Assembly: GCA_029582265.1 (NCBI GenBank)
Contig: CM055821.1
Coordinates: forward strand, 45,389,694-45,453,693
Direction of reading: 5' to 3'
DNA: 64,000 nt
Source: Zoroaster sp. YZ-2022
Lineage: Eukaryota; Echinodermata; Asteroidea; Forcipulatida; Zoroasteridae
Shown: positions 22,550 to 46,116 of the stretch, piece after piece
Position numbering within the stretch: position 1 is the first letter of the stretch
How the letters are laid out: each line of letters starts with the position of its first letter
The notes under the pieces: generated by a model
The model's database searches: none
Told to the model about the DNA's origin: nothing
What the model saw: only the letters and a program-made list of their open reading frames with translations
Program-made: the position numbers and the translations under genes

Positions 22550-22636
22550 TGAAAGGTGGTTTGCGCTTGCGCGGCGGAGCGTATAGGTATAGGTAAGATT
22601 TTTAGCAAGTTTTAAAAAGATGTGTAAAATCTACAT

Positions 22637-23643: not shown

Positions 23644-23670
23644 ATTAAAAAAACTCTCAAAAACATCCTC

Positions 23671-23743
23671 CAAAAAAGATATTGGTTTTATTAGTAAAAA
23701 AAATTGAAATAACGATTTAATATTATCTAGATTAATAGTAAAG
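23671..23743 (+). promoter_or_regulatory. Shared promoter block, copy 2 (Cys-rich gene)
   Basis: Repeats the block of the left TIR almost base for base (AAAAAGATATTGGTTTTATT to GATTAATAGTAAAG) and ends directly on the ATG at 23,744. It lies outside the TIR, so it is a duplicated cassette and not only a consequence of TIR symmetry. Confidence 0.7.
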
Positions 23744-24043
23744 ATGACGACGAGAGCGATGATTCCCTGCGAATGGCTTTTAGTTGGCAAAACAGAAAAG
23801 TGTTGTAGACAAAGTGTGTGCGGTGATGTATTTTGTTCACTTCATTTGTGGCGTATTCGACACGGTCAAAGTATACCCGTTGCGTGTAGAAGATGTAAAA
23901 ATGGCACAAAAACACCGATAAATTTATGTACGAGATGCGTTAATGTATTAAAAATAAATTATTTAAATCGCGTTGAAGAGAAAGCTAGACGAAATTATAA
24001 TTTAGTGATGATAGAGTTGGTTGAAAAGACTCTACGTTTATAG
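23744..24043 (+). CDS. Small Cys-rich, probably zinc-binding Polinton protein
   Basis: 99 residues. Cysteines and histidines are arranged as Cys-Cys (KCCRQSVCGDVFCSLHLW), then CRRCKNG and LCTRCVN, with a basic helical tail (RVEEKARRNYNLVMIEL). This pattern could bind two zinc ions. Driven by the second copy of the shared promoter block, so it probably belongs to the same expression class as the clamp and polymerase. I recognise the general type as a small Cys-rich protein of Polintons, but no function is known to me. Confidence 0.65.
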   Translation: MTTRAMIPCEWLLVGKTEKCCRQSVCGDVFCSLHLWRIRHGQSIPVACRRCKNGTKTPINLCTRCVNVLKINYLNRVEEKARRNYNLVMIELVEKTLRL

Positions 24044-24060
24044 TGACTATAAATTAAAAA

Positions 24061-24143
24061 TTAGCCGCTAAGGCTAAAAATTTGAATTATACGGGGGAGG
24101 CCTATTAGTTACTCTTACCCGCTCCGCTATTTGCGAAGCGGGT
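24061..24143. terminator. Two hairpins between convergent genes
   Basis: TTAGCC-GCTAA-GGCTAA (24,061-24,077) and ACCCGCTCCGC with GCGAAGCGGGT followed by TTTTT (24,117-24,148). They lie between the plus-strand Cys-rich gene and the minus-strand membrane-protein gene and so could end transcripts from both sides. Similar hairpins occur at 27,961, 37,649 and 40,215. Confidence 0.45.
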
Positions 24144-24174
24144 TTTTGATTATAAGATTTGTGTATAGTAAAGT

Positions 24175-24803
24175 TTACTTTAAACTTAAAAGTTTTTCTA
24201 TAAGATCTTTTTTTTCTTTATCTACATCAGCGGCTTTGACCTCTGTTTTAGCTGGTAAAGCTGTAGCTGTGGGTAGAGCCGCCACACGGATTTTTTCTTT
24301 CATTTGAGAAAATTTATCTCGTTCTTCGCAGATGAGTAAAAATTCTTCTTGGGTAATGACACCGTCTTCGATCGCTTTTGAAACGTGGTTTTCGATTGTG
24401 TTGAGTTTAGACGATGCTAAAACTCTAATTTCATCGTGTTTTTTAGCTTTTTTAGATAATTTATATTTGGCGTATCTGAGAGCAAACGCCGCACCACCTA
24501 ACCCTAAAGCTAAACCTTCTAAAACATATCCTACGGGCGATGCTATAACGGTAGCGATACTGGCGATTCCAATGGCTCCTGCTCCCATACAGCCTAATTC
24601 CGCTATCGTTTCTACGGTACTACAAGTTTTGATGATTTTATTATATTTTTTATACGTTGTTTCGCGTTGGTACATTTCGGCTCGTAATTCTTTTTGAATA
24701 TCGTTGATTTTTGTAAACGAAACGCAGCGACGTTAAGCTCTTTTTCACCGTTAAAAGGATTCGTAGTCGGTAACGTTGGATAAATTCTAGTTGTTTCGCT
24801 CAT
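24175..24803 (-). pseudogene. Polinton membrane protein (glycine-rich hydrophobic centre), frameshifted
   Basis: Starts at 24,803 with MSETTRIYPTLPTTNPFNGE and shifts frame near 24,700-24,725. It then continues as a helix (QRETTYKKYNKII), a long Gly/Ala-rich hydrophobic stretch (MGAGAIGIASIATVIASPVG and VLEGLALGLGGAAFALRYAK), a basic KLSKKAKKHDE, and an acidic helical tail with ISKAIEDGVITQEEF-like sequence. The layout (short polar head, hydrophobic hairpin, helical tail) is that of a conserved Polinton protein of unknown role, possibly a virion membrane or entry-related component. The ETTRIYP start is characteristic of this family. Confidence 0.6.
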
Positions 24804-24845
24804 TGTTTTTCTATTAATAGTAAAAGATTTAAAAAATATTAATTT

Positions 24846-25345
24846 TTAATCTAATGGAATACTATTAATTTTAATATCGTAACAGATTCCATTATCTAGA
24901 GAGCCGAAAAAAACAAATTGGGCAAAAAAAATTCTGTTGAAGTTAGTGTTTTCTATTTTGAAGCAAATGCCGCATTCTAAAAGCTTTGGTTCATTATCAA
25001 ATTGAAATAGATTAAAATCTTCTATAAAAAAGTCTGGTCCAAAACGATCCCTCGGATCAAGTTCTCGTTTTGAAACGAGTGATTGTGAGTTATTATTAGT
25101 AGTTATCTTATAGGCCTAATAAGTTGTACAATCTGTTATTGGTACAAATCCATCAAAACTCGGACCAAATTGACCTTGCCAACTAAACCAAATTATATCT
25201 TCAAATTGATAGAATGTTTTTACTTCTAACACATTATCGATATGTAAACCTTGTTAGCTTTAGCGGTTACGTTAGGTGTGGCGGACGAAACTTGCTCACT
25301 TTTTTGACTATCGCTCTTACGACTGGGTCCGTAAATACTAGCCAT
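24846..25345 (-). pseudogene. MASIYGPSR protein, paralog 1 (decayed)
   Basis: Starts MASIYGPSRKSDSQKSEQVS at 25,345. The frame shifts near 25,255 and meets a stop near 25,113, then runs on with FEDIIWFSWQGQFGPSFDGF and ends FFGSLDNGICYDIKI. The strand-rich second half, aromatic pattern and closing G-x-L-x-N-x-x-C motif match the neighbour at 25,388-25,872. Probably a virion protein, because it clusters with the minor capsid gene. The function is unknown. Confidence 0.55.
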
Positions 25346-25387
25346 ATTTATTATAGTATAAAATTTAATTTAATTTAATGGTAAACT

Positions 25388-25872
25388 TTAAATTTTTATA
25401 TTGAAACAGATTTTAGAATTTAGCGCACCGCAAAAGGTTGCCTCTACAAAAACTTTTTGAACATTTCGCATTTTAAAACACATTTTGTATTTTAAATGTT
25501 GCATTTCATTATCGATAAAATTAATTTTTTTATCTCGCGATGGAGAAGGAATATAATAAACGTCAGCCGCATAATCACTCGTTGATGAATATGTAACAAT
25601 ATTATCAGTTTTATAAATTTTACAAAAATAGAGCAGTACGTTGGCGCGTTGTTAAACATGAAAAAAGGTAGTTTAAACGTAGCGTGCCATCCGAGTATGA
25701 CGTTAAATTTTTCGACTAGAGGTATCGTTTGTAAAATTTCATCTCTGTTGATATATCCATGGTGTTCATAAATTTCGCTAGGTGCGCTCGCTCCTACTTG
25801 TAAAATTTCGTCTTTAGCGGCTATAGTAGCAACAACACCGCTCGTTCGACTAGGACCATAAATACTCGCCAT
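25388..25872 (-). pseudogene. MASIYGPSR protein, paralog 2 (frameshifted)
   Basis: Starts MASIYGPSRTSGVVATIAAK at 25,872, only 2 bp after the stop of the minor capsid gene. It includes KFNVILGWHATFKLPFFMFN, then a frameshift near 25,620-25,630 in an AT tract. The other frame carries the ending FVEATFCGALNSKICFNIKI, similar to paralog 1. Two tandem copies with the same nine-residue start suggest a duplicated structural gene. About 160 residues if continuous. No family name known to me. Confidence 0.55.
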
Positions 25873-25874
25873 AT

Positions 25875-26558
25875 TTATATAATTTCTAGATTTAAAATAA
25901 CGGGGAAACCGTGATTATTTATGTCTCTACCCTTTGAATCTTTAATTTGAAAACTCAATGCGTTAAAAGTACCGACTTTAAGCTTTTTCATTAATGGATT
26001 TTTATATTCCATCCACATACTTTCTCCGAACGATTTGTCTTGTAACGGAAAAGCGTTTAAAATAGTACAAGGTTTACCGTTGAAATAATTTTCGGTCGTA
26101 GAAATTTGATCGCAATGAATGTATAGAATTTTAAAAAGTTGCACATCAATTCTTTTACTATATTCTCCCACAGTTAGAAATTCGTTGTGAAGCCCGAGTA
26201 AATTAGCTAACCCGGATGTAAATTTGACGGATTTGTTTTCTTGAGTCAAATTTAGCAAGAAAAAACCTGATGTTTCATTGATGGTGAAAGTGATCCAAGG
26301 TGCGTCTTTTACTATAATATTGATAATTTCGTTAATGTTGTAAAGCCCCGGTTCGACAAACTTTACGACATCTTGTCGCTCACCCACTGTACGATAGATT
26401 ATTCTTTCTTTTTTACGCACGTTGTAATATCCTACCCAAATGTTTACGCTATGTAATAAAATCGTTAGATTACCGGTACCCTCGCGATTATCGATAACGT
26501 CACCTAATTGAACCGACCCTCCATTTTTATCAATTTCGATTTCAAAGGTATGATACAT
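25875..26558 (-). CDS. mCP: Polinton minor capsid (penton) protein, single jelly-roll
   Basis: Intact 227-residue frame. Predicted to form the pentameric vertex of an icosahedral capsid. Visible features are an antiparallel-strand-rich amino half, GLYNINEIINIIVKDAP, FTSGLANLLGLHNEFLT, a central ILYIHCDQISTTENYFNGKP strand-turn, FPLQDKSFGESMWMEYKNPL, and a final strand pair SFQIKDSKGRDINNHGFPVI with LNLEII at the end. This order is typical of Polinton minor capsid proteins. It heads a minus-strand cluster with the two MASIYGPSR genes. It is one of the few undamaged genes in the element. Confidence 0.8.
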   Translation of the reverse strand: MYHTFEIEIDKNGGSVQLGDVIDNREGTGNLTILLHSVNIWVGYYNVRKKERIIYRTVGERQDVVKFVEPGLYNINEIINIIVKDAPWITFTINETSGFFLLNLTQENKSVKFTSGLANLLGLHNEFLTVGEYSKRIDVQLFKILYIHCDQISTTENYFNGKPCTILNAFPLQDKSFGESMWMEYKNPLMKKLKVGTFNALSFQIKDSKGRDINNHGFPVILNLEII

Positions 26559-26594
26559 TTTATTATTAAAATTATATAATTTTAATATAATAAA

Positions 26595-27957
26595 ATGACG
26601 TTTCCATTAGCGTTTCAGAGTAATTTTTCATTTCCATATATAAGCAATCTGGAAATTTTAACGCGCCTCAGAATTTTAATGCTAGCGATTTGACGAGTCT
26701 AAAAACTTACGTCAACGAAAACGAGTTTTTTAACGCACAATTCGATAATGTTTTTAGCAACTACAAGATGCCTCGCGTTGATAGCGACGAGATTGTAAAT
26801 AGTTGGCAGCATACCGTTAAAATTTTATCAAAATCAAATAAATTTTGTAACGTACTGCAGTACAACTAGATGCGGCGTGAGTTATAAACATTTAAATCAT
26901 TCGAACGTGATGATTCGTAGTTTTTTTTAGATTTCACGTCTATTATCAAATGAGACGATTGCTCAAAGAAATGAGCTGTCCTACATCTTTTCAAAATTTT
27001 TATGACGCGTTTGACAACAATATAGACATTAGCGCATATAAAAAAATAAGTAAAGACTTTCACCTTTCAACATCGGATCATTGGAAACAACAAGTAGACA
27101 AAAACTCGTCGGGATTGGGAACGGCTTATTATTACGATAACGGCTACAAAGTGGTACCCGGAAACGACTACGATAATTCTAGTTTGAACGTCATCTCTAC
27201 CGAGGTGAGCGATTACGATTATTATAAAACTGCGACAAAAATGAGTTTTGGAGATCATCCTTCGACCTATACGATCGGATACATTTTACAATCTCCATCT
27301 ACAGAGCTCGCTTGGACAAAATTTATAATCGGCGACTCTAGAGGTTTTACGGATATCGGCACAGAACGCATAAACGACTCTATAAGAACGTACGTTTACG
27401 CGTTATTAGGAGCTCAAGCGCAAGCAAAAACATCATTTTTTACATCCGGTACCGGTTTAGACGCAAAAAGAGAATTTTTAAATTTAGTCGATGCTGAGAT
27501 CGATTCTCCGGTCGATTTACAATCTTCTATTCAACGATATCAAGATAATTTACAATACGCTCGTTCTCAATTAAACTTTGCTATCGGAGAAAATTTATAC
27601 ATGATGCCGAGCGATATGAATTTACGAATAGGTACATATGCAGGATACAACAATAATATTTTAATCGCGATGAATGATTTATCTCTAGGTTCAAATTTAG
27701 ATACAAATTCAGAACTCATTCCTTCTCCTCTTCCACCTTTATAATCGACGTCGCTGTTAACCGCTAAGCACGTGGAAGAATCTAATGATCTAGTATCTCC
27801 CTCTACAATAGCACATGCGCAAGAATCTCCCTCTACAATAACCCAAGACTCTTTGGAAGAATCGAACGATAACCACCAAGAAGAAAAAAATGCTTTAATT
27901 ATTGGTTTCGCGATCTTAACTGGACATGGCGTTATGATTTACGAATTGCTCTACTAG
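26595..27957 (+). pseudogene. Conserved large Polinton protein of unknown function, broken
   Basis: Starts MTFPLAFQSNFSFPYISNL at 26,595, shifts frame near 26,660 and has further breaks near 26,867-26,945. It is open from 26,950 to 27,744 with SEVSDYDYYKTATK-type sequence, GDHPSTYTIGYILQSPS, RGFTDIGTERINDSIRTYVY and QDNLQYARSQLNFAIGENLY. After a single TAA at 27,742 the same frame continues to 27,957 with an acidic linker and a terminal hydrophobic helix (ALIIGFAILTGHGVMIYELL). The protein is helical with a carboxy-terminal membrane anchor. I recognise it as a recurrent Polinton family of unknown role. Confidence 0.6.
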
Positions 27958-27960
27958 CGT

Positions 27961-27975
27961 TAGCCGCCAAGGCTA
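27961..27975. terminator. Hairpin at convergent gene ends
   Basis: TAGCC-GCCAA-GGCTA, the same stem as at 24,061. It lies within the last codons of the minus-strand gene and just after the plus-strand stop. Confidence 0.4.
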
Positions 27976-28197
27976 GAGGTTTTTTCTGCATCCAAGTTAA
28001 AATTAAAAATCCAACTCCAGTTAAAGCTAGCCACAAATGTTCCGCCGTCCACGTGACGACGTTAGAAGCTGTTTTAAATAACCAACTTACTATTGATCCG
28101 ATAATAGCCGGTAAATCGGCTAACGCATTTTTTCCGAGTTTTGCTAATACACTCGCTAGATTTTTTAATGTTTTTTGTATCCACTCTTTTACACCAC

Positions 28198-28304
28198 CGC
28201 TCGGTTCTGGTGGTGCGGGTTCTGGCGGCGCGGGTTCTGGCGGCGCGGGTTTTGGCGGCGCGGGTTTTGGCGGCGCAGGTTTTGGCGGTGCGGGTTTTGG
28301 TAAA
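28198..28304 (-). repeat. Proline-rich coding repeat
   Basis: Seven 15-bp units encoding P(K/E)PAP in the coiled-coil membrane protein, directly after its first membrane segment. Probably a length-variable extracellular or intravirion linker. Confidence 0.75.
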
Positions 28305-29359
28305 ACCGATTTCGCCGCCAAAATGATCGATTCGATGATAGTATTAATTACTAAACCGATAATACCGATTAACAAACCGATCGTTATACCTTGTTCTCTA
28401 AATAAAGTTTTAATTTTTTCTCCCAACGTAACATCTCTTTCTAACATTTTTTGAAACGTTTCTTTAATTCTATTAATTTGACTACGAAGAACGTAATCAT
28501 GCGCATCTATTTGCTCTACGATAATTCGTTTGTCATCTTTTAGTTCTCGCAACTTTTGACGAGCAGTTTCTATCGATTCATCGTCAAGCTTTCTTTCTTC
28601 AGCGTCACTAATTAATTCTTGAATATCAGAGATTTTTTGGTAGAGTACTTTTAATTTAGTTAAAAGATTTAATTGTTCACCTCGATTTGTCGTCATGATG
28701 TTATTGAGTGCTACCACTTCTCGCCATGGAATGTTTAATTCCGTTTGAATTTCTTGATCTCTCGAAAGAGTCATAGCCACCATTTCGATAGCTTCTCCTA
28801 CTTGTATTGATTTTTCCACCCGTTGTTTCGGTATAGAAGGTAACCTTCTAGTACGATCTAGAGTGACTGGGGTTGTTTTATCAACACCAATTAATGGTCT
28901 TTCTGCTTCGTTTATAACATTTTGCATAGCTTGTTTACTTTTATCAAATATACCTAAATTATCTAATGTTAAACCTTTTATTGAATTTAACTTTAAAAAT
29001 CCACCTGATTTTAAATTAGTTAATCGTATTTCTGTATTACCTTTAAAAAAAAAGTAAACCCACTTTCTTATTCTTATCAAATTTATAGATAAATTCATTA
29101 TAGTCTTTCATAACGGGTTCATACCCTATACTTTCATAAAAATCATCGACTATATCTTTACGTAATCTATTTTCTTGAGATAAAGTTGGTACACTAAAAG
29201 ACGTTTCTTCCTCTAGCGGTAGAGCTTGTTCGGTCAATTGAACATTACCGCCGTCGTCTGCGATATCATCGTCAATATATTTATCTTGGGGAGGCTCTTT
29301 GAACTTTGGATCAACTTCTAAATAATCATACATTCCATCCTCCATTTTACAATTACTTT

Positions 29360-29797
29360 TTATCTTTTTTTTAACAATTTATAACTCGCGTAACCTACAG
29401 CGCTCATCCCTAAAATAATGAATAGTATTTCTCGCGTTTTTTGATCTTCGTCAGGAACGTAAAAATCCTCAAGTTTGGGTTCGTTGTATAAATCTTTTGG
29501 TAAATCGAATCGTTCACCAGTCACATTATAATATTCATTCATCGCATCGTCAATGTTATTAAACGTTCTTTCAGCGTTTGATTCTTTTTGTATTCGTTCG
29601 TTTAAATAATCTAGATAATTTAAACGCTTTTTACTAAATTTATCTCTAGCTTTCGTAAGTTGTTCTAGCGCTAAATCGTGCCTTTTACGTTCTTGTTCGG
29701 CATCGCTAGAACGAAAAGTACTAAATAAAAAATTTGATCCGGTAAAAGCTAACGCGTTAACGACCGCGCCTCCAATCATCATCGCTACACTCACCAT
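29360..29797 (-). CDS. Polinton membrane protein with two hydrophobic ends
   Basis: Intact 145 residues. An amino-terminal hydrophobic segment (MMIGGAVVNALAFTGSNFLF) is followed by a charged helical middle (SDAEQERKRHDLALEQLTKA and RLNYLDYLNERIQKES), a motif FNNIDDAMNEYYNVTGERFD, and a carboxy-terminal membrane helix (REILFIILGMSAVGYASYKL) with a Lys-Arg tail. Family members recur in metazoan Polintons next to the coiled-coil protein. The role is unknown, and a virion membrane protein is a reasonable guess. It points away from the MCP start at 29,853, so the 55 bp between them should hold two divergent promoters. Confidence 0.65.
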   Translation of the reverse strand: MVSVAMMIGGAVVNALAFTGSNFLFSTFRSSDAEQERKRHDLALEQLTKARDKFSKKRLNYLDYLNERIQKESNAERTFNNIDDAMNEYYNVTGERFDLPKDLYNEPKLEDFYVPDEDQKTREILFIILGMSAVGYASYKLLKKR

Positions 29798-29852
29798 TTT
29801 ACTTTTTATTTTTACTTTTTTTAATTTATTTTATATTTACCAACTATAAACT

Positions 29853-29862
29853 ATGACTAATA
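29853..29862 (+). pseudogene. MCP: Major capsid protein, first three codons (split by foldback element)
   Basis: ATG at 29,853 and two more codons, then the CTAATA duplication and the foldback element. The frame resumes at 35,119. The first copy of the duplication is at 29,857-29,862 and the second at 35,113-35,118. Removing the insertion and one duplication gives a continuous frame into the next segment, which also fixes the gene start. Confidence 0.75.
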
Positions 29863-29883
29863 AGTAGTAAGGAGAGGAGCAGG

Positions 29884-30110
29884 AGACACCCCGTTTGGTG
29901 GGGGAATTGTGGGGGAATTGAGTGTGGGGGGAGGTGGGGGAATTGTGGGGGAATTGAGTGTGGGGGGAGGTGGGTGAAATGTGGGGAAATTGAGTGTGGT
30001 GGGGTGGTGGGTGAAATGTGGGGCAAATTGAGGTGGGGGTGGTGGGTGAAATGTTGGGGAAATTGAGGGTGGGGTTTGGTAGGGAAATGTAGGGTAAATG
30101 GAGGGTGGGT
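29884..30110 (-). repeat. Subterminal G/C-strand-biased tandem repeats, left arm
   Basis: About 36-bp units with CTCAATTCCCCCACAATTCC on the minus strand, grading into CATTTCACCCACCACCCC variants. Mirrored in the right arm (34,862-35,080). They start 20 bp from the element end. Open frames run through them (proline/threonine-rich, up to 116 residues from MLLKRNTLTG at 30,187), but I regard coding as unproven. They may be recombinase binding sites. Confidence 0.7.
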
Positions 30111-30329
30111 CTTTTGTGTAGTTTATGTTTTTCATATTGGAACACATATTTCGTTGAACCCGTTAGTGTGTTCCTTTTCAGTAACATGATTCAGCGGTTT
30201 ATAATATAATACAATGAGATTTGTAATACATTTCTTTAAATCAAAACAAACGAACGAGCAAACACGCAATAAAAAACATGTACATATTATAATTTAGTTT
30301 TACTATTAAATTGAACAGAAATACGTTGT

Positions 30330-30535
30330 TAGGTAAACAAAAGGACAACTAGAAATCTTAATGGATAGAATTAATCGTAATCTTAATGGATAGAATTACT
30401 CGTAAGTTGTTAGGTAAACAAAAGGACTAGAAATCTTAATGGATAGAATTAATCGTAATCTTAATGGGTAGAATTAATCGTAATCTTAATGGAAAGAAAT
30501 AATCATAAGTTGTTAGGTAAACAAAAGGACTACTA
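30330..30535 (+). repeat. Tandem repeats of the AATCTTAATGGATAGAATTA type
   Basis: Repeated words AATCTTAATGGATAGAATTA and GTTAGGTAAACAAAAGGAC in a short array upstream of the 142-residue gene, mirrored at 34,460-34,645 in the right arm. They could be a regulatory array or replication-slippage product. Confidence 0.65.
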
Positions 30536-30606
30536 GAAGTCTTGTTCCAGGAGACATTGAATCACCCGCCAGTGTTGATATCGTAGAAGACGCATCACCC
30601 ACCAGA

Positions 30607-31031
30607 ATGGTTATCAAAAGAATTCTGACCAAGATGGTTACGGATAACATACTAAAGCTCGTGTATGCTGCTCAGGAACAACGAGGGTGTAAAGGATGTG
30701 AGGATAACTGGCCGAGTCTGTATGATCATGAGTGTGCGTTTTTCGGTATGCATCCACCATGCCGTCTTTATGACTATGCATCTGATTATTACGAAGAAGC
30801 GGTGGAACATGTAGACGCGGACAAAGTTATTGACGTTCTTGACGCAGTCAACACCTATCTAAATGTTAGTGAATCAAGCGACGAGGATGGACATTGATAA
30901 ACATTCTATGATTAGGGAAATCCTAAATGAGTGGAGGGCGGACCCTGACGATGTTGCCCGTTCGTTCTACTCTACGTTTTTTAACAATTTAACTGAACTG
31001 ATTGGTAGCACTATTGAACAGTTGAATGCAT
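30607..31031 (+). pseudogene. Foldback gene 1, left-arm copy (frameshifted)
   Basis: Same as the intact 142-residue gene at 33,963-34,391 until codon 93, where a 2-bp deletion (GACGAGGATGG against GACGAGGGATTGG) shifts the frame and ends the ORF at 30,897. The original end is still readable to 31,031 in the other frame. Confidence 0.75.
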
Positions 31032-31697
31032 AATGTATAATCTCCTTTGAGATAATTATTTCCATCGAACAAGTTTATTGTGTGAAATCGGTTTTTTTTA
31101 ATTTTTGTATTTAATTTTATTTGTTTATTTATACTGCTAATGGATTGATTTGAATTAAAGTGTGATTTTTAATGTAATATTGTAATTGGTTTTGAAAATA
31201 TCAGTGATGTCCTTTAAATTAATAAATAAAATCTTAACATTGTGTGTATTACTTTTGTTGAAAATGGTTTAAAAAATAAATGTGAAGAAATGTAACATTG
31301 TTTATGTGTGTGTTTTATTTTGGTGTAATTTTATGTAAAGACCCAGATTAGTGTTTGTGTCGGGAATGGATACGGTAGAAGAGGGTAAGGGTTGAATTGG
31401 ATATGGTTAACGATATGAGTTGGACAGGGGTAAATATAAACACACATAATAAAAGACGACAAGAGGTGCCTAAAACCAACCGGAATTCATCAGAATTCCT
31501 TTAGTGGTCAACGGGCGATATACAGTTTCAAGTATTTTATTCATCATCAAAACATACAATACAAATATATCAAATGGTGATTATCAATAACGTTTATAAA
31601 GAACAAAATTACAACGCATCAGCTAACTACGATTCTTTAAACAAAACAAAACCCTACTTGGTAAAAGATTCTTTCTGAAACATTTGGTCTTTCATCA

Positions 31698-32468
31698 TCA
31701 CTCTTCCTCGTTCTCTTCATCCTCATTTAGTTGAAGTAGTCCGTCAAATTTGGTATGGAGTTTAGGCATTACTCTGTTCAGAGCTTCGGTTACTTCCATG
31801 CCTTTATTTACTTTTTCTTCGAGATCTTCCGCAATATCCTGATGAGTGCCATTATCTTTCAGATGTAGGTAACTTGACAAAAAATCCTTGTATTTGTTGA
31901 AAAAGATTCGCTTGACTGCCCAAAGGGTTTTCCTATTGGCTTTTTCCTTGGCTTGATCTTCACTCATACCCCCGTTGACGTACTTTTCATATTGTTCACA
32001 CCACATCTCTTCAGTAGCCTCTTTAGCCTCTTCCAACCAGTCTCGAAAAGTGACATTGTCTTCCAATTCAGAACTAGACTCATCCTCTTCCGATGATTCG
32101 TCATTGGCATTGTCTTCCAATTCAGAACTAGACTCACCCTCTTCCGATGATTCGTCATATTCCACCTCCGTATCGGATTCTGAATCATCTTCCTCGAAAT
32201 TTTCGTCTTCATCCTGCGTAGATTCAGTTTCACAAGTTTCTATTTCCGAATCTTCAAATCTACGCTTTTTAAAATCGGGTTCAGAATTATCGACGTCAGA
32301 ATTGTCAGATTGGATAGCTTTAATTTCAGAATCATCGTCAACTTCATCCGTTTTAGATTTATCTTCATTATGTACATGTTCTGCATGCCTCCGTAGGTTA
32401 TATCTCCGTCCAAAGCTTTTGCCGCACTGGTGACAAGCATGGGGTTTGACAGCAGAAATAACATTCAT
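31698..32468 (-). CDS. Foldback gene 2: C2H2 zinc-finger acidic protein, intact copy
   Basis: 256 residues. One C2H2 finger at the start (CHQCGKSFGRRYNLRRHAEH followed by VH), a Lys/Asp-rich linker, two tandem 17-residue acidic repeats with ESSSELEDN, then a helical domain from about residue 140 (RDWLEEAKEATEEMWCEQYE, GGMSEDQAKEKANRKTLWAV) and an acidic tail. Looks like a small DNA-binding regulator. Its 5' end lies in the central spacer, so only this copy has the finger. It converges with foldback gene 1. Confidence 0.7.
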   Translation of the reverse strand: MNVISAVKPHACHQCGKSFGRRYNLRRHAEHVHNEDKSKTDEVDDDSEIKAIQSDNSDVDNSEPDFKKRRFEDSEIETCETESTQDEDENFEEDDSESDTEVEYDESSEEGESSSELEDNANDESSEEDESSSELEDNVTFRDWLEEAKEATEEMWCEQYEKYVNGGMSEDQAKEKANRKTLWAVKRIFFNKYKDFLSSYLHLKDNGTHQDIAEDLEEKVNKGMEVTEALNRVMPKLHTKFDGLLQLNEDEENEEE

Positions 32469-32540
32469 GTTGAATCTCTGATGCTTAATCTCCGATTGAC
32501 AAGAAACGGAAGAAATAGTTTATATATAGGCCTATAACTA

Positions 32541-32769
32541 CTCATTTCGCTGCTCATTTTGCTGCTCATTTGCTCATTTCGCTGCTCATTTGCTCATTTC
32601 GCTGCTCATTTGCTCATTTTGCTGCTCATTTGCTCATTTCGCTGCTCATTTGCTCATTTCGCTGCTCATTTGCTCATTTCGCTGCTCATTTGCTCATTGC
32701 GCTGCTCATTTGCTCATTTCGCTGCTCATTTCGCTGCTCATTTGCTCATTTCGCTGCTCATTTGCTCTT
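32541..32769 (+). repeat. 20-bp tandem repeat at the centre of the foldback element
   Basis: About ten units of TGCTCATTTGCTCATTTCGC upstream of the zinc-finger gene start, followed at 32,803-32,835 by the inverse sequence (AATGAGCAGCGAAATGAGCA). The inverse stub joins the right arm, so the break point of the inverted duplication falls within this array. Confidence 0.8.
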
Positions 32770-32825
32770 TTCACTGAAATACAAACACGAAAGGGTATCA
32801 CAAATGAGCAGCGAAATGAGCAAAT

Positions 32826-33298
32826 GAGCAGCGAAAATTTCGAGGAAGATGATTCAGAATCCGATACGGAGGTGGAATATGACGAATCATCGGAAGAGGA
32901 TGAGTCTAGTTCTGAATTGGAAGACAATGCCAATGACGAATCATCGGAAGAGGATGAGTCTAGTTCTGAATTGGAAGACAATGTCACTTTTCGAGACTGG
33001 TTGGAAGAGGCTAAAGAGGCTACTGAAGAGATGTGGTGTGAAAAATATGAAAAGTACGTCAACGGGGGCTTTGGGCAGTCAAGCGAATCTTTTTCAACAA
33101 ATACAAGGATTTTTTGTCAAGTTACCTACATCTGAAAGATAATGGCACTCATCAGGATATTGCGGAAGATCTCGAAGAAAAAGTAAATAAAGGCATGGAA
33201 GTAACCGAAGCTCTGAACAGAGTAATGCCTAAACTCCATACCAAATTTGACGGACTACTTCAACTAAATGAGGATGAAGAGAACGAGGAAGAGTGATG
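32826..33298 (+). pseudogene. Foldback gene 2, right-arm copy lacking the finger
   Basis: The right arm starts inside the gene, at the NFEEDDSESD point, so the finger and linker are missing. A chance ATG from the repeat array (32,826) gives MSSE followed by the acidic region in frame. A deletion of about 43 bp near 33,068 (after the VNGG motif) then shifts the frame. The original ending is open from 33,114 to 33,296. Confidence 0.75.
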
Positions 33299-33962
33299 AT
33301 GAAAGGCCAAATGTTTCAGAAAGAATCTTTTACCAAGTAGGGTTTTGTTTTGTTTACAGAATCGTAGTTAGCTGATGCGTTGTAATTTTGACCTTTATAA
33401 ACGTTATTGATAATCACCATTTGATAAATTTGTATTGTATGTTTTGATGATGAATAAAATACTTGAAACTGTATATCGCCCGTTGACCACTAAAGGAATT
33501 CTGATGAATTCCGGTTGGTTTTAGGCACCTCTTGTCGTCTTTTATTATGTGTGTTTATATTTACCCCTGTCCAACTCCTATCGTTAACCCTATCCAATTC
33601 AACCCTTACCCTCTTCTACCGTATCCATTCCCGACACAAACACTAATCTGGGTCTTTACATAAAATTACACCAAAATAAAACACACACATAAACAATGTT
33701 ACATTTCTTCACATTTATTTTTAAAACCATTTTCAACAAAAGTAATACACACACAATGTTAAGATTTTATTTATTAATTTAAAGGACATCACTGATATTT
33801 TCAAAACCAATTACAATATTACATTAAAAATCACACTTTAATTCAAATCAATCCATTAGCAGTATAAATAAACAAATAAAATTAAATACAAAAATTAAAA
33901 AAAAACGATTTCACACAATAAACTTGTTCGATGGAAATAATTATCTCAAAGGAGATTATACA

Positions 33963-34391
33963 TTATGCATTCAACTGTTCAATAGTGCTACCAATCAGTT
34001 CAGTTAAATTGTTAAAAAACGTAGAGTAGAACGAACGGGCAACATCGTCAGGGTCCGCCCTCCACTCATTTAGGATTTCCCTAATCATAGAATGTTTATC
34101 AATGTCCAATCCCTCGTCGCTTGATTCACTAACATTTAGATAGGTGTTGACTGCGTCAAGAACGTCAATAACTTTGTCCGCGTCTACATGTTCCACCGCT
34201 TCTTCGTAATAATCAGATGCATAGTCATAAAGACGGCATGGTGGATGCATACCGAAAAACGCACACTCATGATCATACAGACTCGGCCAGTTATCCTCAC
34301 ATCCTTTACACCCTCGTTGTTCCTGAGCAGCATACACGAGCTTTAGTATGTTATCCGTAACCATCTTGGTCAGAATTCTTTTGATAACCAT
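33963..34391 (-). CDS. Foldback gene 1: 142-residue Cys-containing protein, intact copy
   Basis: Begins MVIKRILTKMVTDNILKLVY at 34,391. A compact Cys/His cluster follows (QRGCKGCEDNWPSLYDHECA, then HPPCRLY) that could bind one zinc, and the rest is helical and acidic (YASDYYEEAVEHVDADKVID). I do not recognise a named domain. Its intact state, when the left copy is frameshifted, implies that one functional copy per element sufficed or that decay began after the inverted duplication. Confidence 0.65.
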   Translation of the reverse strand: MVIKRILTKMVTDNILKLVYAAQEQRGCKGCEDNWPSLYDHECAFFGMHPPCRLYDYASDYYEEAVEHVDADKVIDVLDAVNTYLNVSESSDEGLDIDKHSMIREILNEWRADPDDVARSFYSTFFNNLTELIGSTIEQLNA

Positions 34392-34861
34392 TCTGGTGGG
34401 TGATGCGTCTTCTACGATATCAACACTGGCGGGTGATTCAATGTCTCCTGGAACAAGACTTCTAGTAGTCCTTTTGTTTACCTAACAACTTATGATTATT
34501 TCTTTCCATTAAGATTACGATTAATTCTATCCATTAAGATTTCTACTCCTTTTGTTTACCTAACAACTTACGAGTAATTCTATCCATTAAGATTACGATT
34601 AATTCTATCCATTAAGATTTCTAGTTGTCCTTTTGTTTACCTAACATCGTATTTCTTTTCAATTTAATAGTAAAACTAAATTATAATATGTACATGTTTT
34701 TTATTGCGTGTTTGCTCGTTCGTTTGTTTTGATTTAAAGAAATGTATTACAAATCTCATTGTATTATATTATAAACCGCTGAATCATGTTACTGAAAAGG
34801 AACACACTAACGGGTTCAACGAAATATGTGTTCCAATATGAAAAAACATAAACTACACAAA

Positions 34862-35080
34862 AGACCCACCCTCCATTTACCCTACATTTCCCTACCAAAC
34901 CCCACCCTCAATTTCCCCAACATTTCACCCACCACCCCCCACCTCAATTTGCCCCACATTTCACCCACCACCCCTCCACACTCAATTTCCCCACATTTCA
35001 CCCACCTCCCCCCACACTCAATTCCCCCACAATTCCCCCACCTCCCCCCACACTCAATTCCCCCACAATTCCCCCACCAA
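34862..35080 (+). repeat. Subterminal tandem repeats, right arm
   Basis: Mirror image of 29,884-30,110, with 36-bp units containing CTCAATTCCCCCACAATTCC. They end about 20 bp inside the element terminus. Confidence 0.7.
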
Positions 35081-35118
35081 ACGGGGTGTCTCCTGCTCCT
35101 CTCCTTACTACTCTAATA

Positions 35119-35381
35119 CATACGGAGATGTACTCGATCCATACAGAAGATTAAGAAACCCTTTGGGATTAAAAGGATTGCGTCAAAAAGTCGTCATTAC
35201 AAACAATCCGAGCACCATTACCGAAAATCAATTGTTGACGGTTCGTTTTCCAAATTTAGGAATACATGACGTCATCGTTCCGGGAACGGTTCGATTAGCT
35301 TTCAACATTGATCTTCATTCTGCGGATGATGATGCGAGAACGATGGTACAGAATATAGGTAGAGCTATCGTAAAACATATA
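35119..35381 (+). pseudogene. MCP: Polinton major capsid protein, segment 2
   Basis: Continues the frame that starts at 29,853. Residues visible: YGDVLDPYRRLRNPLGLKGL, TITENQLLTVRFPNLGIHDV, IVPGTVRLAFNIDLHSADDD and RTMVQNIGRAIVKHI, which follow the first strands of the Polinton double jelly-roll capsid protein (a G-T-x-x-L-x-F-N strand and the NIGRA helix). The frame is cut at 35,381 by the solo LTR, with ATATA duplicated on both sides. Confidence 0.8.
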
Positions 35382-36640
35382 GTGTTACGAATCTTACCCT
35401 TTGATTTTGATAAATATTAGCACCCCTTATAGTTCACTTCTTCCACTTCCAATATTTTGCTGACGATGCAATTTCAACCAGTCTAAGTCCCAGGGTTGTT
35501 TCCCCGGACCCTCGATTGTCCGCTATGAATATGCAATCCATACAAGGACGCTACTTTTGCTCATGCATATCCAGCGCTAACGCAATGCATAATGCAACAC
35601 CAGCGAGAGCCTTGAGTGCGTGCCACACCCTCCCGCCACGTGGCTTGGAGCCGTCCTTTGGACTTAGTCTATTTCCCGAATACTTTCCTCGGAGTCCACC
35701 CCTTCACACCGAACACGGTTCGTGGGTGAACCACGGCCAAACAGTCATGACTGACCCGCTCAGTCATTAGCCGTGGCCCGCGTGTAGTGCTCCCTAACCC
35801 AAGCACAGCCGCTGTTCCCCTAATGCAGTAATAGCTTAGCATCCAAGCAAATAGCTTAGCACCCCAGTAAGCATTTTCCCCTTGAACACGCCCTCCTTTC
35901 TAAGTTGTCGATCGCTTCACTTTCGTCAAATACCTTTCCTTATATGGAACAAGGACCTGTTGTATGTCATGATTTTGCACACGTTTCTACCCTTAGACGC
36001 GGAAGGCAAGCTTCTCATTGGCTAAGACGCTAAATTAGGCTTATGTTTTATTTATTCCTAGGCCCCAGATTTCTATATAAACCCGAGATTTCCTGATCTC
36101 GGCGGTAGTGCGGTTCCGAATGAAATCTATGCGACTCGATCCGATCCGATCCATGACAGTGCGCATATACCGAACTATTACGGTCCAGAGCCTCGTTCGT
36201 TGAACCAATGGTGCAGGCGTCGATATGGCCATTGGTTCGCCTACATGTAGCTATGCGATCTGATACACACTCTGGCCCCATCCAGACACCCCGTGTAGTC
36301 AAGCCCCGGTGGTCCCCGTCGTAGAGACCGACCAGCCGCCCGTCTCTCGGTATAGCAGTGCCCGTACCGTATGCCGAGTGACAAGCCGCATGAACGAACG
36401 ATGGTCCCCACTGACTGTACCCAGTAGTTGGTATTCGTACACCCTATTCGGAACTTAGCACAAGTATATAAGTTTAACTATTGACATGTACCTATACGCT
36501 ACCACTCCTGTCATACATGTTACTAGTGCCATTGTTAAATATTGATGTTAATAATAAACCAACCCCATTGATTGAGATTGTCACCACAAAGTTTGTGTCC
36601 GACTATTATTTGTTGACCCACAAAAGTGGGGAATGCAACA
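35382..36640. mobile_element. Solo LTR inserted in the MCP gene
   Basis: A 1.26-kb unit starting TGTTACGAATCTTACC (35,383) and ending GAATGCAACA (36,640), so the ends are TGTT and AACA. ATATA occurs at 35,377-35,381 and 36,641-36,645. A promoter-like TTTCTATATAAACCCGAG lies near 36,071. One extra G sits between the left duplication and TGTT. No internal coding region. TG/CA ends, size and duplication fit a solo LTR of a BEL or Gypsy element. The family was not identified. Confidence 0.6.
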
Positions 36641-37647
36641 ATATAATCATTAAAATGGAAGGAAATAAAATATTTTCATTAGACGATGCGGATGTGTTCA
36701 ATTGTTATAAAGACGAATGATTAACGAAAGATCAACGCGAAAATTTAGCGTATCAAGGAATCGAAAATCCTAACATCACTAAATTAAGAGTAGGCGCTAA
36801 TGACGCGGTTCCTACAAAAAACGAGGGAAAAGATAAAGCCATCGCGGATACATTAAAAAATAGATATCACATTCCGCTAGATTTTGAATTGTTGACCGAT
36901 CATCAGCCCTACTACCAATCGGGGATCGGAGATCGATTGACTTACGAACTCGTGTTTAATAAATTTTCTAACGTGATTAAAAGCACCGATGATAATGCAA
37001 AATATATCATCAGTGGGATTTCTTTAGAATACCAAGTCGTTCATATGCCGGAACTCGCTCGAATGATTAAAAATCAATATAGCAACCGTTTGTCGATATT
37101 GTTTGATCGCGTTTTAAGACAGAGCGTGACCCCGTTAAACAAATGCGATACGACGTGGAATATAAATTTAAATACCCCCGCAAAAAGTATGAAAGGAATA
37201 TTGTTTTTATTCAAAGAGCCCAATGTAAAAGAAACCAACAAATTGTATAATCCAAAAATCAATAAAGTTTCAATTACGAACGAAGGCGTTCCTAATCAAC
37301 TCTACGCGCACGGAATGAAAAAATATCAACATTGGGAAGAAATTCAAAAATATTTCGGTGATTCGAATAAACAACACGCTATACAAGTCGTTAAAGCTCT
37401 AAATTTATCCAACGTCAAACAAGCCGATTATTTACTCAATCGATACGGTTTATTTTTAGATATGAGAACGAGCGACGACAATAAAATACACGGAAGTGGG
37501 AGACGAGTACAAAACTTATCCGAAGGAATTACCATTCAAATAGATAAAGAAGCGGAAGCCGCGGGTGAATTATACATGTATACTTTTATTATTATGGACG
37601 CGCAACTCGTTATAAAAAATGGGCGTTTTGAATCTGTCGATTATTAG
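36641..37647 (+). pseudogene. MCP: Polinton major capsid protein, segment 3
   Basis: Resumes in frame after the solo LTR with IIKMEGNKIFSLDDADVFNC, meets a single in-frame TGA at 36,718-36,720 (a Trp codon is expected from context), and is then open to 37,647. Further motifs are HIPLDFELLTDHQPYYQSGI, ISGISLEYQVVHMPELARMI and the last strands TFIIMDAQLVIKNGRFESVD, fitting the second jelly-roll. About 424 residues in total when the insertions are excluded. Apart from two insertions and one stop the gene is undamaged. Confidence 0.8.
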
Positions 37648-37648
37648 T

Positions 37649-37661
37649 ATTAGCGACTAAT
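37649..37661. terminator. Small hairpin between MCP and ATPase genes
   Basis: ATTAG-CGA-CTAAT directly after the MCP stop and 11 bp before the ATPase start. It resembles the TTAGCC hairpins found elsewhere in the element at gene ends. Confidence 0.35.
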
Positions 37662-37672
37662 ATTAAAAGGGA

Positions 37673-38294
37673 ATGTTGCCTAAATATCCACACGATGCGT
37701 TAATTTGCGGCCAAACCGGATGCGGAAAAACTGAATTTGTTTTAAATTTGTTAGAAAAAGAATATTTAAAATATTTCGAAACGATCGTCATATTATGTCC
37801 CACCATCGGTGACAACGACACGTATCAAAATAGAAAATGGATTTGGAACGACGAGCGAGTGATCGTTGACGATTAAAAAAATTATACGTTAAACAAAGCG
37901 ATAAAAATGTATCGCGACATATTCAAAGGAAACGAAACGTTGTTTATTATCGACGATTGTAGCGCGAGTAAAGATTTGCGATATAAAATTTTTTGTCGAG
38001 ATGAGACGAATGCATTGTCATACTTGGCTTTTAGCGGCCGACACGCGCGTCACAGCTGTTGGGTTATTTCACAAAGATATAATAGCGTATTGAAAGATTT
38101 TAGAGAGCAACTCAAGTGGGTGTGTATATTTTATTGTAAAGATAGAGACTCGTTTGAAAATTGTCTTCGAGAAAATGATGTCATACCGACGAAAGAGTTA
38201 AGAATGGAAATTCATGAAAAAATTAAAACGAGTTAAACATCGCAAATTGATTTTAAAAACGGATCAACCTACCAAGTATGCGATTATAGACTAA
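37673..38294 (+). pseudogene. ATP: Polinton DNA-packaging ATPase (FtsK/HerA-A32 type), damaged
   Basis: About 207 residues in total. The Walker A motif GQTGCGKTEFV is at residues 12-22 and Walker B TLFIIDDCSA at about 85-94. LAFSGRHARHSCWVISQRYN carries the sensor/arginine region. One in-frame TAA (37,874-37,876, before an A-run) splits the ORF, and a frameshift near 38,225 displaces the last residues (LILKTDQPTKYAIID, ending 38,294). The enzyme would pump the genome into capsids. It follows the MCP by 25 bp on the same strand. Confidence 0.85.
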
Positions 38295-38307
38295 ATGACT
38301 TAGCAAG

Positions 38308-38656
38308 TACTTGTAGGTTACTTGTAGGTTACCTGTAGGTTACTTGTAGGTTACCTGTAGGTTACTTGTAGGTTACCTGTAGGTTACTTGTAGGTTACCT
38401 GTAGGTTACTTGTAGGTTACTTGTAGGTTACTTGTAGGTTACTTGCAGGTTACTTGTAGGTATACTTGCAGGTTACTTGTACTAGGTTACCTGTAGGTTA
38501 CTTGTAGGTTACCTGTAGGTTACTTGTAGGTTACTTGTAGGTTACTTGTAGGTTACTTGCAGGTTACCTGTAGGTTACTTGTAGGTTACTTGTAGGTTAC
38601 TTGCAGGTTACTTGTAGGTTACTTGCAGGTTACTTGTAGGTTACTTGTAGGTTACT
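38308..38656. repeat. 11-bp minisatellite inside the Polinton
   Basis: About 30 tandem units of TTACTTGTAGG with TTACCTGTAGG and TTACTTGCAGG variants, alternating in places with a 22-bp period. It lies between the ATPase and the small 83-residue gene. No ORF is required by it. Confidence 0.9.
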
Positions 38657-38722
38657 GATTCGTTACTGTTAGCTTAGTGTTTTATTTTTTTTAAATATTA
38701 TAGGATATATAATTATATAAAT

Positions 38723-38974
38723 ATGAATACTGAAAAAGTAAACTATTTTATATATAATCTTAAACAACTTTTAAATACTGAAAAAGGAAAATTTGTACTA
38801 GTTCATCTTTTGTTCTATATCGATAATGAACAATTTATAGAACTTGTTTTATTTTTAAATAATAATAAAACAAAACAAATTATAGAACAGCTTGTTCAAG
38901 TTTTAAATAATAATAAAATGAACAAGTTGTTAGCTTTTTTAGATAAATTTAAAAATATAATAAAAGCTATTTAA
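38723..38974 (+). CDS. Small helical protein, unknown
   Basis: 83 residues, very AT-rich codons, Leu/Asn/Lys-rich. Two internal copies of a LNNNK motif (ELVLFLNNNKTKQIIEQLVQ and VLNNNKMNKLLAFLDKF) suggest an internal duplication. No recognised domain. Preceded by an AT-rich TATA-like leader. May be a genuine small Polinton gene. Confidence 0.45.
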   Translation: MNTEKVNYFIYNLKQLLNTEKGKFVLVHLLFYIDNEQFIELVLFLNNNKTKQIIEQLVQVLNNNKMNKLLAFLDKFKNIIKAI

Positions 38975-38980
38975 TAATAA

Positions 38981-39616
38981 ATGGAAGAACTTCACAAAAT
39001 ATTAAACGAAAATCCATCCGTGTTAAGCCCACCATCCATGGAATGTTAATACGAGTGACAGCTTGCTGCTGAAGCAAAAGCAACGAGATAAACGACTCTT
39101 CTCCGTTGTAGCGGGAGGAGATTCAAAAAAAAATTCGGTAAAGAGTATTCCGTCAGCGACATTGAAGCTTTGTATACGGAAGAGCGAGATGTATTACACA
39201 CGCAATACGAAACTAAATTAGGCCGTGATATAACAGAGTCTTTAGGTAGCGCCATTCTAACAATAACATTATATGCCAAATTATTAGGATTTAGTTTAAA
39301 TCGCATTGATTTATACGGTCATCATTTTGAAATTGACGACGAAGGTAAATTAATTACAGATTTAGAAAAAGATCCATTCATTTCGATCATGCTTTCTACC
39401 GTAGCGTGTGAAATATACTACAATTACGGAATGTTGATAGCACCGCTCTCAACAATGTTAATTACGGCAAAGCATTTAAAAAGAAAAGAAGAATCTTGTA
39501 TAGATAATAAAAGCGATGGAGACGAACGAGTTGGAGAATGCGAATCAGACGATAAACGCTTCACCGCGCCAGCGCCAAGCGAGCACACCGTCGTCAGTAA
39601 CGAAACCGAACAATAA
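38981..39616 (+). pseudogene. Unknown Polinton protein, broken at its start
   Basis: An ATG at 38,981 (MEELHKILNENPSVLSPPSM) is followed by stops near 39,048. The frame is recovered from about 39,128 with FGKEYSVSDIEALYTEERDV, GRDITESLGSAILTITLYAK and FISIMLSTVACEIYYNYGML, ending in a charged tail. Helical, with one moderately hydrophobic segment. I do not recognise the family. The tail runs into the truncated integrase, so its own end may be a deletion product. Confidence 0.45.
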
Positions 39617-39704
39617 AAAAGAAAAAAGAAAAAAACAGAGTCGCAGCTGGAAAAAGACTCGCGGAACTTAATAAAAAGAAAAAACAAGAAGCGAAGCGAG
39701 TCAA

Positions 39705-40217
39705 CATAGAGCTCAGGGAATAGTAGAGCGATTCAATAGAACTTTGGGTGAAAGATTATTTTCTCATCAATACGCTAAAGAAATAGCGACGGATACAAGA
39801 AATAGAGAATGGGTTAAAAGATTACCGCTAGTCGTAAAAGCATTAAACGACGAAACGACCAGACTCATCAATTTAAAACCTAAAGAGGCGATTAAATTAC
39901 GCGTCGTCGAGCAAAATCCAGCCTCACCAGCGATTATTACTTCAAAAAAAGAAAAAAGAATCCCAACTAGCAGTTTGGTTCGGTATTTATACGCACCCGG
40001 TGAAGCTGAAAAAGATACGAGACGTCGTGCGACTGATCCTATATGGAGTATACAAATTTATAGATTAGCTAAAACGATGAAAGCTGCGAATCAACCCATC
40101 TTGTATTATTTAGCGTCTGCGCCGGGCGTAGAAGCAAGCCCCGCTCGTAGTTTTGTAAGAGAAGAATTACAAATTATTCCTCGAGATACGGAAAATCCAC
40201 CCATTAAACGATTATAG
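39705..40217 (+). pseudogene. INT: Polinton integrase (retroviral type), carboxy-terminal remnant
   Basis: The remaining part starts at HRAQGIVERFNRTLGERLF. The Glu in VERFNRT (39,726-39,728) is the third catalytic residue of the D,D-35-E core. It then has the carboxy-terminal domain with SSLVRYLYAPGEAEKD, DPIWSIQIYRL and ARSFVREELQIIP. The zinc-binding domain and the two catalytic Asp residues are missing. The join at about 39,703 follows lysine-rich sequence of the preceding gene, so a deletion removed the front of the gene. Confidence 0.85.
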
Positions 40218-41944
40218 CGGAGCTTTGCTCGGCTAATTCTGAAATTTTATAGTGACCGTAAGAACAAGTATGTATTCCATCCTCTAAAATATATCTCTTT
40301 GTGTCTAAAGGAGATAGTGATATTTTATTTACTCGCGTTGTATATAATCTATGTTTTTCATTTCTAATAAAATTCATAGGGTGATGTAATGGTTCTAAAT
40401 CGCATAAAACTTGTTTATATCGCTCGTGTTTAATTTCCTGTTCTAAAACTTGTTTTTTAACGCCCTTAGCTTTTCTTAGTTCTTTCGAGAAAACGTCGGG
40501 TCTTATTTCTATTTCTTTTTGTAAAAGTATCGAATACATTTTTGGTCTTAAACCGACAATTTCAGAGATTAGAGTTCCCGCAGTCTCGTCTTTCATTTTA
40601 CCGATCACTTTTTTATTTTTTTCAGAATATAAAAAATGTTGTTTTTCTAAATCTTTATTATAATAATTACTAAAATCGTACGAGTCTTTGTCTTTTTCCA
40701 TATCTTTATAAACATCTTCCGTTTGAATCTCGAGTAACAAGCTATCCGTATCCGTGTAAAGTAAATTACACTCGTTGTCGTATTTCTTTTTTAAATGATT
40801 GTAATAAAAATCGTACATTAAATGTTTAGATAAATCCAGTATGCTCATTCCTACGTAGACTGGACGGTTGAGTGCAAGTTTTATTTTATGCATGTGAATC
40901 GCCGCAAAATCGTTATCAAAAATCCTAACCTCGGCAAAATTTGGTTTTGCAATTAATGTACGAATTTGATTTTCTGCTTTTTCATCGTTTAATCGCTTCA
41001 AATTCACGTTGACGCGATTTCGTACATTTTCCATCGTTTTTCCAAAAACTGAATTATTAATGAGTTTGTACAAATCTTTTTCAAAATTTGATTTTGCATT
41101 TTTTCTGAGTCGGGTGTTTAAATCAATGTATGATTTCATCCACGGTGATTCATCAAATTCTAAAACGCGATGAATTTTTGTTAGTTTCATACCGAGTTGT
41201 AAATATAATCGTAAATTACGATAATGAAGCACGTAGTTGCATTTATCGTATAAATTTGGAACTAATTTTTGAACGTTTGGAGCGGGTTTGTCGTTTAATA
41301 GCTCGAGCTGATAGTCGCTCATCCATTCTTTCGGTACCCTCAACGACTCTGGCGCGAGTGGATATGCATTGTGAGAATCGTGTAATTCTTTAGGGTATTC
41401 TAAATCAACTTCTAAAATGCATCCTTTTCCACGTATTAATCCTTTGTCCGAGAGTCTGTCAATTTGTTTTTTAGTCAACCATTTAAAATTACCCGATGGC
41501 AAAAGTTGACTCATCGCATAACCGTACAAATTATTCGCGTCTAAATATTGTATAAAACTACAAGGTTTTGTTTTATCGTAATCGGGTAAATGGCGGTTGT
41601 TTGCTTTTGCGTATCGTTTACTTACCATACACGTTCCTCCTCTAGTACCTTTTTCTATAAATAAATGCATGTCGACATCCGTCAATAACTCTAAACAAAC
41701 TTTCGAATGTTTAAGCAAATCGTCCCAGCTCAATCCTGGGCTCGTGTAATAATTAGCTGGATCCAAACCGTATTCTCGTACGCAAGTGGTACGAAAATTT
41801 TCAAACACGTCCGCCAATAAGCAAGTATCCGTACGCACGTACAAATCGTGATAATCGCCTAGAGTTTTACAATCGAACTTGTTATAAACGTTCTTTGCGT
41901 GCTGATATTGTTCTTTAGTAATGCGTTGGTTGTTTAAAAACTAC
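40204..41944 (-). pseudogene. POLB: Protein-primed DNA polymerase B, polymerase domain
   Basis: Open from the Gypsy LTR junction to the stop at 40,204. Starts FLNNQRITKEQYQHAKNVYN and GDYHDLYVRTDTCLLADVFE. Polymerase motif A is FIQYLDANNLYGYAMSQLLP, motif B NSVFGKTMENVRNRV and motif C NLLYTDTDSLLLEI with both catalytic Asp residues. A lysine-rich thumb and a carboxy-terminal RYILEDGIHTCSYGHYKISE follow. All polymerase motifs are intact. The 3'-5' exonuclease region that should precede it is absent between the two POLB parts. The stop overlaps the end of the convergent integrase gene. Confidence 0.9.
40215..40235. terminator. Hairpin between integrase and polymerase B
   Basis: TAGCGGAGC-TTT-GCTCGGCTA, imperfect stem at the point where the two convergent genes overlap. 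Comparable to the hairpins at 24,061 and 27,961. Confidence 0.4.
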
Positions 41945-45108: not shown

Positions 45109-45152
45109 TCCCTAGAATTTCACACATTTCTGCAAAAACTCTGGATTCAAAG

Positions 45153-46103: not shown

Positions 46104-46116
46104 TCTAATGGCGATT

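Follow-up and report, generated by a model that had tools for sequence, protein, structure and literature searches.

Long inverted arms with subterminal tandem repeats are typical of the foldback transposons, e.g. FB, Galileo, Tetris and the sea-urchin TU elements; those of the FB/Galileo type make target duplications of 7-9 bp and carry a P-superfamily transposase in their full-length copies. In adenoviruses, symmetric recombinants and defective interfering genomes arise in which one end half of the protein-primed linear genome is inversely duplicated. The virophages and transpovirons, which are satellites of giant viruses, depend on a helper, have repeats at their ends and contain few genes. 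Here, we describe a foldback element in the starfish Zoroaster sp. YZ-2022 that resembles each of these in part, and that lies within a decayed Polinton. It belongs to a family best called helper-dependent (palindromic) Polinton satellites. The stretch of DNA analysed (64,000 nucleotides; contig C6, 45389694-45453693) is referred to as the window, and the genome searched comprises 1.0 Gb in 616 contigs.

Polintons, or Mavericks (Polintoviricetes), have inverted ends and encode an integrase, PolB, capsid proteins, an ATPase and a protease. For vertebrate Mavericks, ends of the form (AGT)2//(ACT)2 and 6-bp target duplications are reported in PMC8097293, where Mavericks are termed virus-like, particles not having been observed as of that paper. 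The foldback element shares these ends and this duplication, and integrase-bearing copies with the same ends are present in the genome; unlike a Polinton, it has no match to the polymerase, integrase, capsid-like or ATPase-like proteins, and its arms span nearly the whole element. It differs from FB, Galileo, Tetris and TU in its 6-bp duplications, its Polinton ends and the likely identity of its autonomous partner, a Polinton. Whereas adenovirus symmetric recombinants have a similar architecture, the foldback forms are known here as integrations with target duplications. It also differs from virophages, which have capsid genes of their own, and from transpovirons, as its intact open reading frames (ORFs) encode a C2H2 protein and a Cys protein with no match to capsid-like proteins, and as the helper it likely uses is a Polinton of an animal genome. 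With considerable confidence, we read it as a palindrome without an integrase, which is among 35 copies with paired ends and was likely integrated and probably replicated by a second Polinton lineage (lineage 2) rather than by the Polinton surrounding it (the host Polinton, lineage 1), its landing there likely being chance.

The coordinates of the element and its parts are given in Table 1. Its ends, AGTAGTAAGGAGAGGAG, at 29863-29879 (+) and 35112-35096 (-), are the sole two matches to this motif in the window at up to three mismatches (mean expected by chance, 0.15). When 29863-32784 is aligned with the reverse complement of 32785-35112, 2,296 of 2,313 aligned columns are identical (99.3%, i.e. 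17 mismatches, with gaps besides), and the right arm is shorter than the left side by gaps of 25, 43 and 528 bp. Only 4 of the 17 mismatches are transitions, which is below our expectation. Each gene is intact once, the C2H2 gene in the left arm and the Cys gene in the right arm. Thus, an earlier reading of this DNA from its sequence alone (the sequence-only reading) was accurate in describing AGTAGTA ends, a 6-bp CTAATA duplication, inverted arms, two genes and the lack of an integrase: none of eight lineage-2 proteins searched, including the polymerase, integrase, capsid-like and ATPase-like proteins, matches in the element at E<=1e-4, which makes it a non-autonomous, Polinton-ended element and not a Polinton. 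A miniature inverted-repeat transposable element (MITE), i.e. a short and non-coding one, was considered and rejected, as the element is 5,250 bp long and has two intact ORFs.

The C2H2 protein matches PF00096 with E=2.9e-4 and 21.6 bits, under the curated cut-off of 25.2. Its C-terminal domain has 44 database homologues at E<=0.01, and an alignment of the window protein with 23 of these 44 has 20 invariant columns. For the Cys protein, the only relatives with names are from the starfish Patiria miniata (two of 13 matches), one being 46% identical over 96% of the query and the other 56% over 32%. A WW-domain ORF precedes the Cys ORF in many other copies; no WW match was seen in the window element.

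The element is one of many. The left arm, which from 30545 inward is a core common to many other copies, gave at least 53 matches in the genome (best 40 of 945 candidates scored). A 30-base pattern of the foldback end, allowing up to two mismatches, matched 95 times (48 forward, 47 reverse), whereas its reversed control matched nowhere; by position, 70 of the 95 ends could be paired into 35 elements of 1.7-15.2 kb, leaving 25 unpaired. Of the 35 pairs, 31 are flanked by an exact duplication of 6 bp and no more, and five of six duplication bases match in two others (C1:101310328 and C1:41642900). The family therefore has both the ends and the duplication length reported for vertebrate Mavericks (PMC8097293). 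Since it is multicopy and integrase-less with such ends and duplications, a Polinton-type integrase is its likely integrator. At C11:6368246-6372001, the flanks are exact reverse complements over 10 bases, which would fit an inverted duplication of one end together with its flank. The flanks and duplications of C4:15299375-15306322 match those of C4:15384855-15391253 in reverse complement; these two copies are probably one insertion event copied by inverted segmental duplication.

The sequence-only reading took the helper to be the disrupted Polinton itself, on the basis of its ends and of 6 bp as the duplication size made by a Polinton integrase. The size agrees with that in vertebrate Mavericks, but the host Polinton family does not make it. 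An end pattern of the host Polinton (up to three mismatches) matched 114 times forward and 118 times reverse in the genome, with no match for the control, and duplications of exactly 5 bp surround all five copies checked, i.e. the window copy and four end pairs among the matches listed. Assuming independent pairs, the chance that all five would fall among the nine pairs without an exact 6 bp is 1.9e-4. The AGTAGTA start is indeed shared; the foldback and host ends diverge after these seven bases, and the host terminal inverted repeats show no alignment to the foldback left arm above chance beyond them (best E 0.24), so that neither ends nor duplications track the host Polinton family as that reading proposed. 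Five MITE-like palindromes of 247-259 bp (L088-L092, on C2, C5, C16, C20 and C17) have host Polinton ends and 5-bp duplications; because all have the same flanks they count as one event. The host lineage, too, has end-only derivatives.

A better candidate is found at C1:82386146-82400222, an element of 14,077 bp with the duplication GCCCTA and with both ends free of mismatches to the foldback ends, so that an integrase-bearing copy has the same ends and the same duplication length as the short copies. This element was read as separate pieces covering 11.6 of its 14.1 kb. They match the lineage-2 major capsid protein (MCP)-like, p143, minor-capsid-like, integrase, p172 and ATPase-like proteins (L093), and the protease-like protein and the rest of the MCP-like protein (L098). 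Its right end aligns to positions 35-646 of the foldback arm (641 columns, 90%). The query proteins were taken from C4:59642500 onwards (L031), C20:25389500 onwards (L032) and L011. Domain matches in the integrase are to rve (E=3.8e-13) and Chromo (E=4.2e-9); it is only 22% identical to the integrase piece of the host Polinton (176 residues, E=0.003); the PolB-like protein is 26.6% identical to the PolB-like piece in the window (E=1.8e-5). The L011 version of the protease weakly resembles S273R of African swine fever virus (0.0073). A second integrase-bearing copy, C4:59637467-59649998 (L028, L031; 12,532 bp), has (AGT)2 ends and the duplication AACGTA, and its own layout is inverted, ORFs for WW, Cys, protease-like and capsid-like proteins being present to either side. 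In the genome, the integrase query gave at least 113 rows of matches (best 105 of 2,955 candidates scored). By comparison of coordinates, one of the integrase matches listed falls within one of the 35 paired elements, and of the unpaired ends, three (C11:951859, C2:61960659 and C2:43024563) are less than 10 kb from such a match. Such a full-length relative with its own integrase speaks against the helper first named, and C1:82386146-82400222 likely represents the helper lineage of the foldback family. The sequence-only reading was thus likely right that a Polinton mobilised the element, and wrong as to which.

It may be asked whether the short copies have genes of their own or are plain deletion derivatives of the second lineage, i.e. 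elements dependent on a helper for integration, without selected genes, whose ORFs are left over from recent deletion. Our reading contains it as a more restricted version, so that the two overlap, and we give it a little under even chances. Consistent with it, copies mostly diverge by about 1-2%, so that in a family this young ORFs would stay open without selection, and much of the protease ORF is kept in four copies. Gene content argues the other way. Twenty-five copies were fetched whole or in part, a biased sample because most were found with an arm query that includes part of the C2H2 gene. Of these, 21 match the C2H2 protein and none of the integrase, MCP-like, p143, minor-capsid-like, ATPase-like and PolB-like proteins; three have an integrase and no C2H2 match in the parts read (for two of the three, only part of the sequence was read); and one, L019 (partial), has WW and Cys only. 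The C2H2 gene is thus matched in 21 of 22 integrase-less copies versus none of the three integrase-bearing ones. Among the 21, L011/L012 match 22% of p172, while L011, L021, L025 and L029/L030 match at least 45% of the protease, and L017 and L023 match 11%. Five copies were chosen for their size among those located by the end pattern alone (C1:82386146, C14:5837299, C4:19954102, C1:101310328 and C1:37457767; all partly read); the C2H2 gene was found in four and the integrase set in one. Because WW and Cys ORFs are also present in two integrase-bearing copies, the C2H2 gene is left as the sole candidate for a private gene, and the conservation of its C-terminal domain across the 44 database proteins likewise sits poorly with unselected remnants.

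The palindromic form recurs among the copies surveyed. These ten were found by their arm and so do not sample the family at random; L009 and L011 lacked the final few hundred bases. Long inverted arms, with pieces exceeding 1 kb, are present in seven of the ten, and are of left-half or right-half type and differ in length. The WW-Cys half is duplicated in five of the seven (only Cys in the window copy, only WW in L024), whereas L011 duplicates the half with orf134 and the protease, and L009 duplicates the C2H2 gene with flanking DNA. L021 (6,385 bp) lacks long arms; in it, WW, Cys, C2H2, protease and a portion of orf134 follow one another. Left-half and right-half arms suggest fold-back replication. 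The proposed sequence of events is as follows. The lineage-2 integrase would act in trans on the short copies, as their ends and duplication length strongly suggest; protein-primed replication by the lineage-2 polymerase may, with moderate support, start at their ends; occasional fold-back of the displaced strand, or a template switch, would produce inverted duplications of the left or right half; and these palindromic products would integrate like any linear genome of lineage 2. Half-genome palindromes would be the expected product of displaced-strand fold-back in end-primed replication of linear DNA, for which there are parallels in adenovirus. Alternatively, the palindromes could have formed after insertion, through host repair or gene conversion and not through Polinton replication. 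This concerns one step only and overlaps with our reading; we think it unlikely, though far from negligible. Four palindromes are represented by both arms in a tree of the copies. The two arms group as closest relatives in the window copy (0.35% versus at least 0.82%) and in L017, as a post-insertion origin would have it, but not in L016 and L018. It fits less well that all seven palindromic copies retain exact 6-bp duplications and both ends, and that left-half and right-half forms exist with arms of differing length.

Several points weigh against replication and integration by lineage 2, which are deduced from sequence features. The nearest-neighbour arms of the window copy and L017 mean that their palindromes could be post-insertion rearrangements. 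The duplication is absent from two of the 35 pairs (C11:6368246 and C12:2793982), and for C1:41642900 the better of two possible right ends was taken. No polymerase match was seen in the 11.6 of 14.1 kb read of C1:82386146-82400222, and the first part of its integrase match is in a different frame. The protease-like protein resembles Peptidase_C5 weakly (0.0085, 0.0099), and the ATPase-like protein Pox_A32 (0.017), both below cut-off. The MCP-like, minor-capsid-like and PolB-like proteins have no Pfam match, and we assume their names from resemblance and gene order. Against solved structures, the MCP-like protein matches only 23 residues of 7on7, which is a designed protein and not a capsid (E=4.5e-7; no single stretch passes by itself).

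Two further explanations fare far worse. That the element is a satellite of the surrounding Polinton, moved by that Polinton's integrase, is largely refuted and very improbable: the shared AGTAGTA start and the location in its capsid-like gene speak for it, whereas its 5-bp duplications, its differing ends and the fact that the 30-base ends belong also to a different Polinton speak against it. Just as improbable is an ordinary cut-and-paste foldback transposon of the Galileo/FB type with coincidentally Polinton-like ends and its transposase in an unseen full-length copy, since, despite similar long arms with subterminal tandem repeats, the duplications are of 6 rather than 7-9 bp and a Polinton-type gene set lies between identical ends (no search aimed at other transposases was made).

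Table 1. Features of the foldback element and of the host Polinton in the window
Feature	Position	Strand	Remarks
Foldback (palindromic) element, whole	29863..35112	.	5,250 bp; ends AGTAGTA...TACTACT
Target duplication CTAATA, left copy	29857..29862	+	
Target duplication CTAATA, right copy	35113..35118	+	perfect 6-bp pair
Left arm	29863..32205	+	ungapped arm pieces end at 32205
Right arm, inverted copy of left arm	32832..35112	-	ungapped pieces reach 32832
G-rich subterminal tandem repeats	29892..30108	+	unit ~36 bp; left arm; mirror copy 34877-35083
Minisatellite	32531..32803	.	units ~20 bp; near palindrome centre
C2H2 protein P0001, intact	31698..32468	-	left arm; 256 residues; C2H2, acidic stretch, helical C-terminal domain
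C2H2 gene copy, truncated and frame-broken	32832..33300	+	right arm
Cys protein P0002, intact ORF	33963..34391	-	right arm; 142 residues
Cys ORF copy, frameshifted	30607..31030	+	left arm
Host Polinton (lineage 1), decayed	22428..50764	.	AGTAGTA ends; inverted end repeats 22428-22735 / 50446-50764
Host Polinton duplication CATGT	22423-22427 and 50765-50769		5 bp as it stands
Interrupted capsid-like ORF, first three codons and one base	29853..29862	+	ATG at 29853; authors' reading of the sequence
Integrase-like pieces of host Polinton	39092..40217	+	
PolB-like piece of host Polinton	40204..41940	-	ends beside gypsy element

The host Polinton itself lies in what we take to be an endonuclease-like ORF of a long interspersed nuclear element, whose reading frame is compatible with a 5-bp duplication, or with a 6-bp one that lost a base. 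As the sequence-only reading stated, the foldback element disrupts the gene we presume to encode the capsid at codon 3, having inserted after three codons and one base. By our own reading, this ORF resumes to the right of the element up to a stop at 35420, after which it is further broken up to a stop at 36718-36720, and 35420-36500 is about 1 kb of GC-richer, foreign-looking DNA within it. A gypsy-type element (41946-49948; RVT_1, E=5.7e-36), with long terminal repeats (41946-42234 / 49660-49948) that are 99% identical over 289 nt, adjoins the piece presumed to be PolB. Because of this element and the foreign-looking DNA in the same gene, the landing in the capsid-like gene looks like chance. 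The claim that the foldback element disables its host is thus borne out as to the damage, which is real for this copy, yet it is one of several breaks in a decaying Polinton.

Other features lie nearby. A PCNA-like gene (22715-23176, +; PF00705 PCNA_N, E=3e-11) adjoins the left end of the host Polinton. Copies of a dispersed repeat, 92-98% identical, are at 3070-3198, 14285-14413 and 51758-51886. In repeat copies close by (21953-22034 and 51978-52059), tRNA-Leu is predicted by ARAGORN, and hence these are possibly elements resembling short interspersed nuclear elements.

A more far-reaching interpretation is that a lineage of animal DNA viruses has a genuine satellite in this family, which would have its own signature regulator gene (C2H2, acidic and helical), missing from its helper, exploit one Polinton lineage for its polymerase, integrase and possibly capsid, multiply as fold-back palindromes and knock out rival Polintons by insertion; we regard this as speculative and doubtful, with perhaps a minor chance of being right. 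With 5-bp versus 6-bp duplications, there is an easy way to test which helper mobilised a given element. If the reading favoured here is true, helper-dependent half-genome palindromes would be a genomic footprint of extrachromosomal, end-primed replication, and the family would let one ask which signals the replication, integration and packaging of Polintons need.

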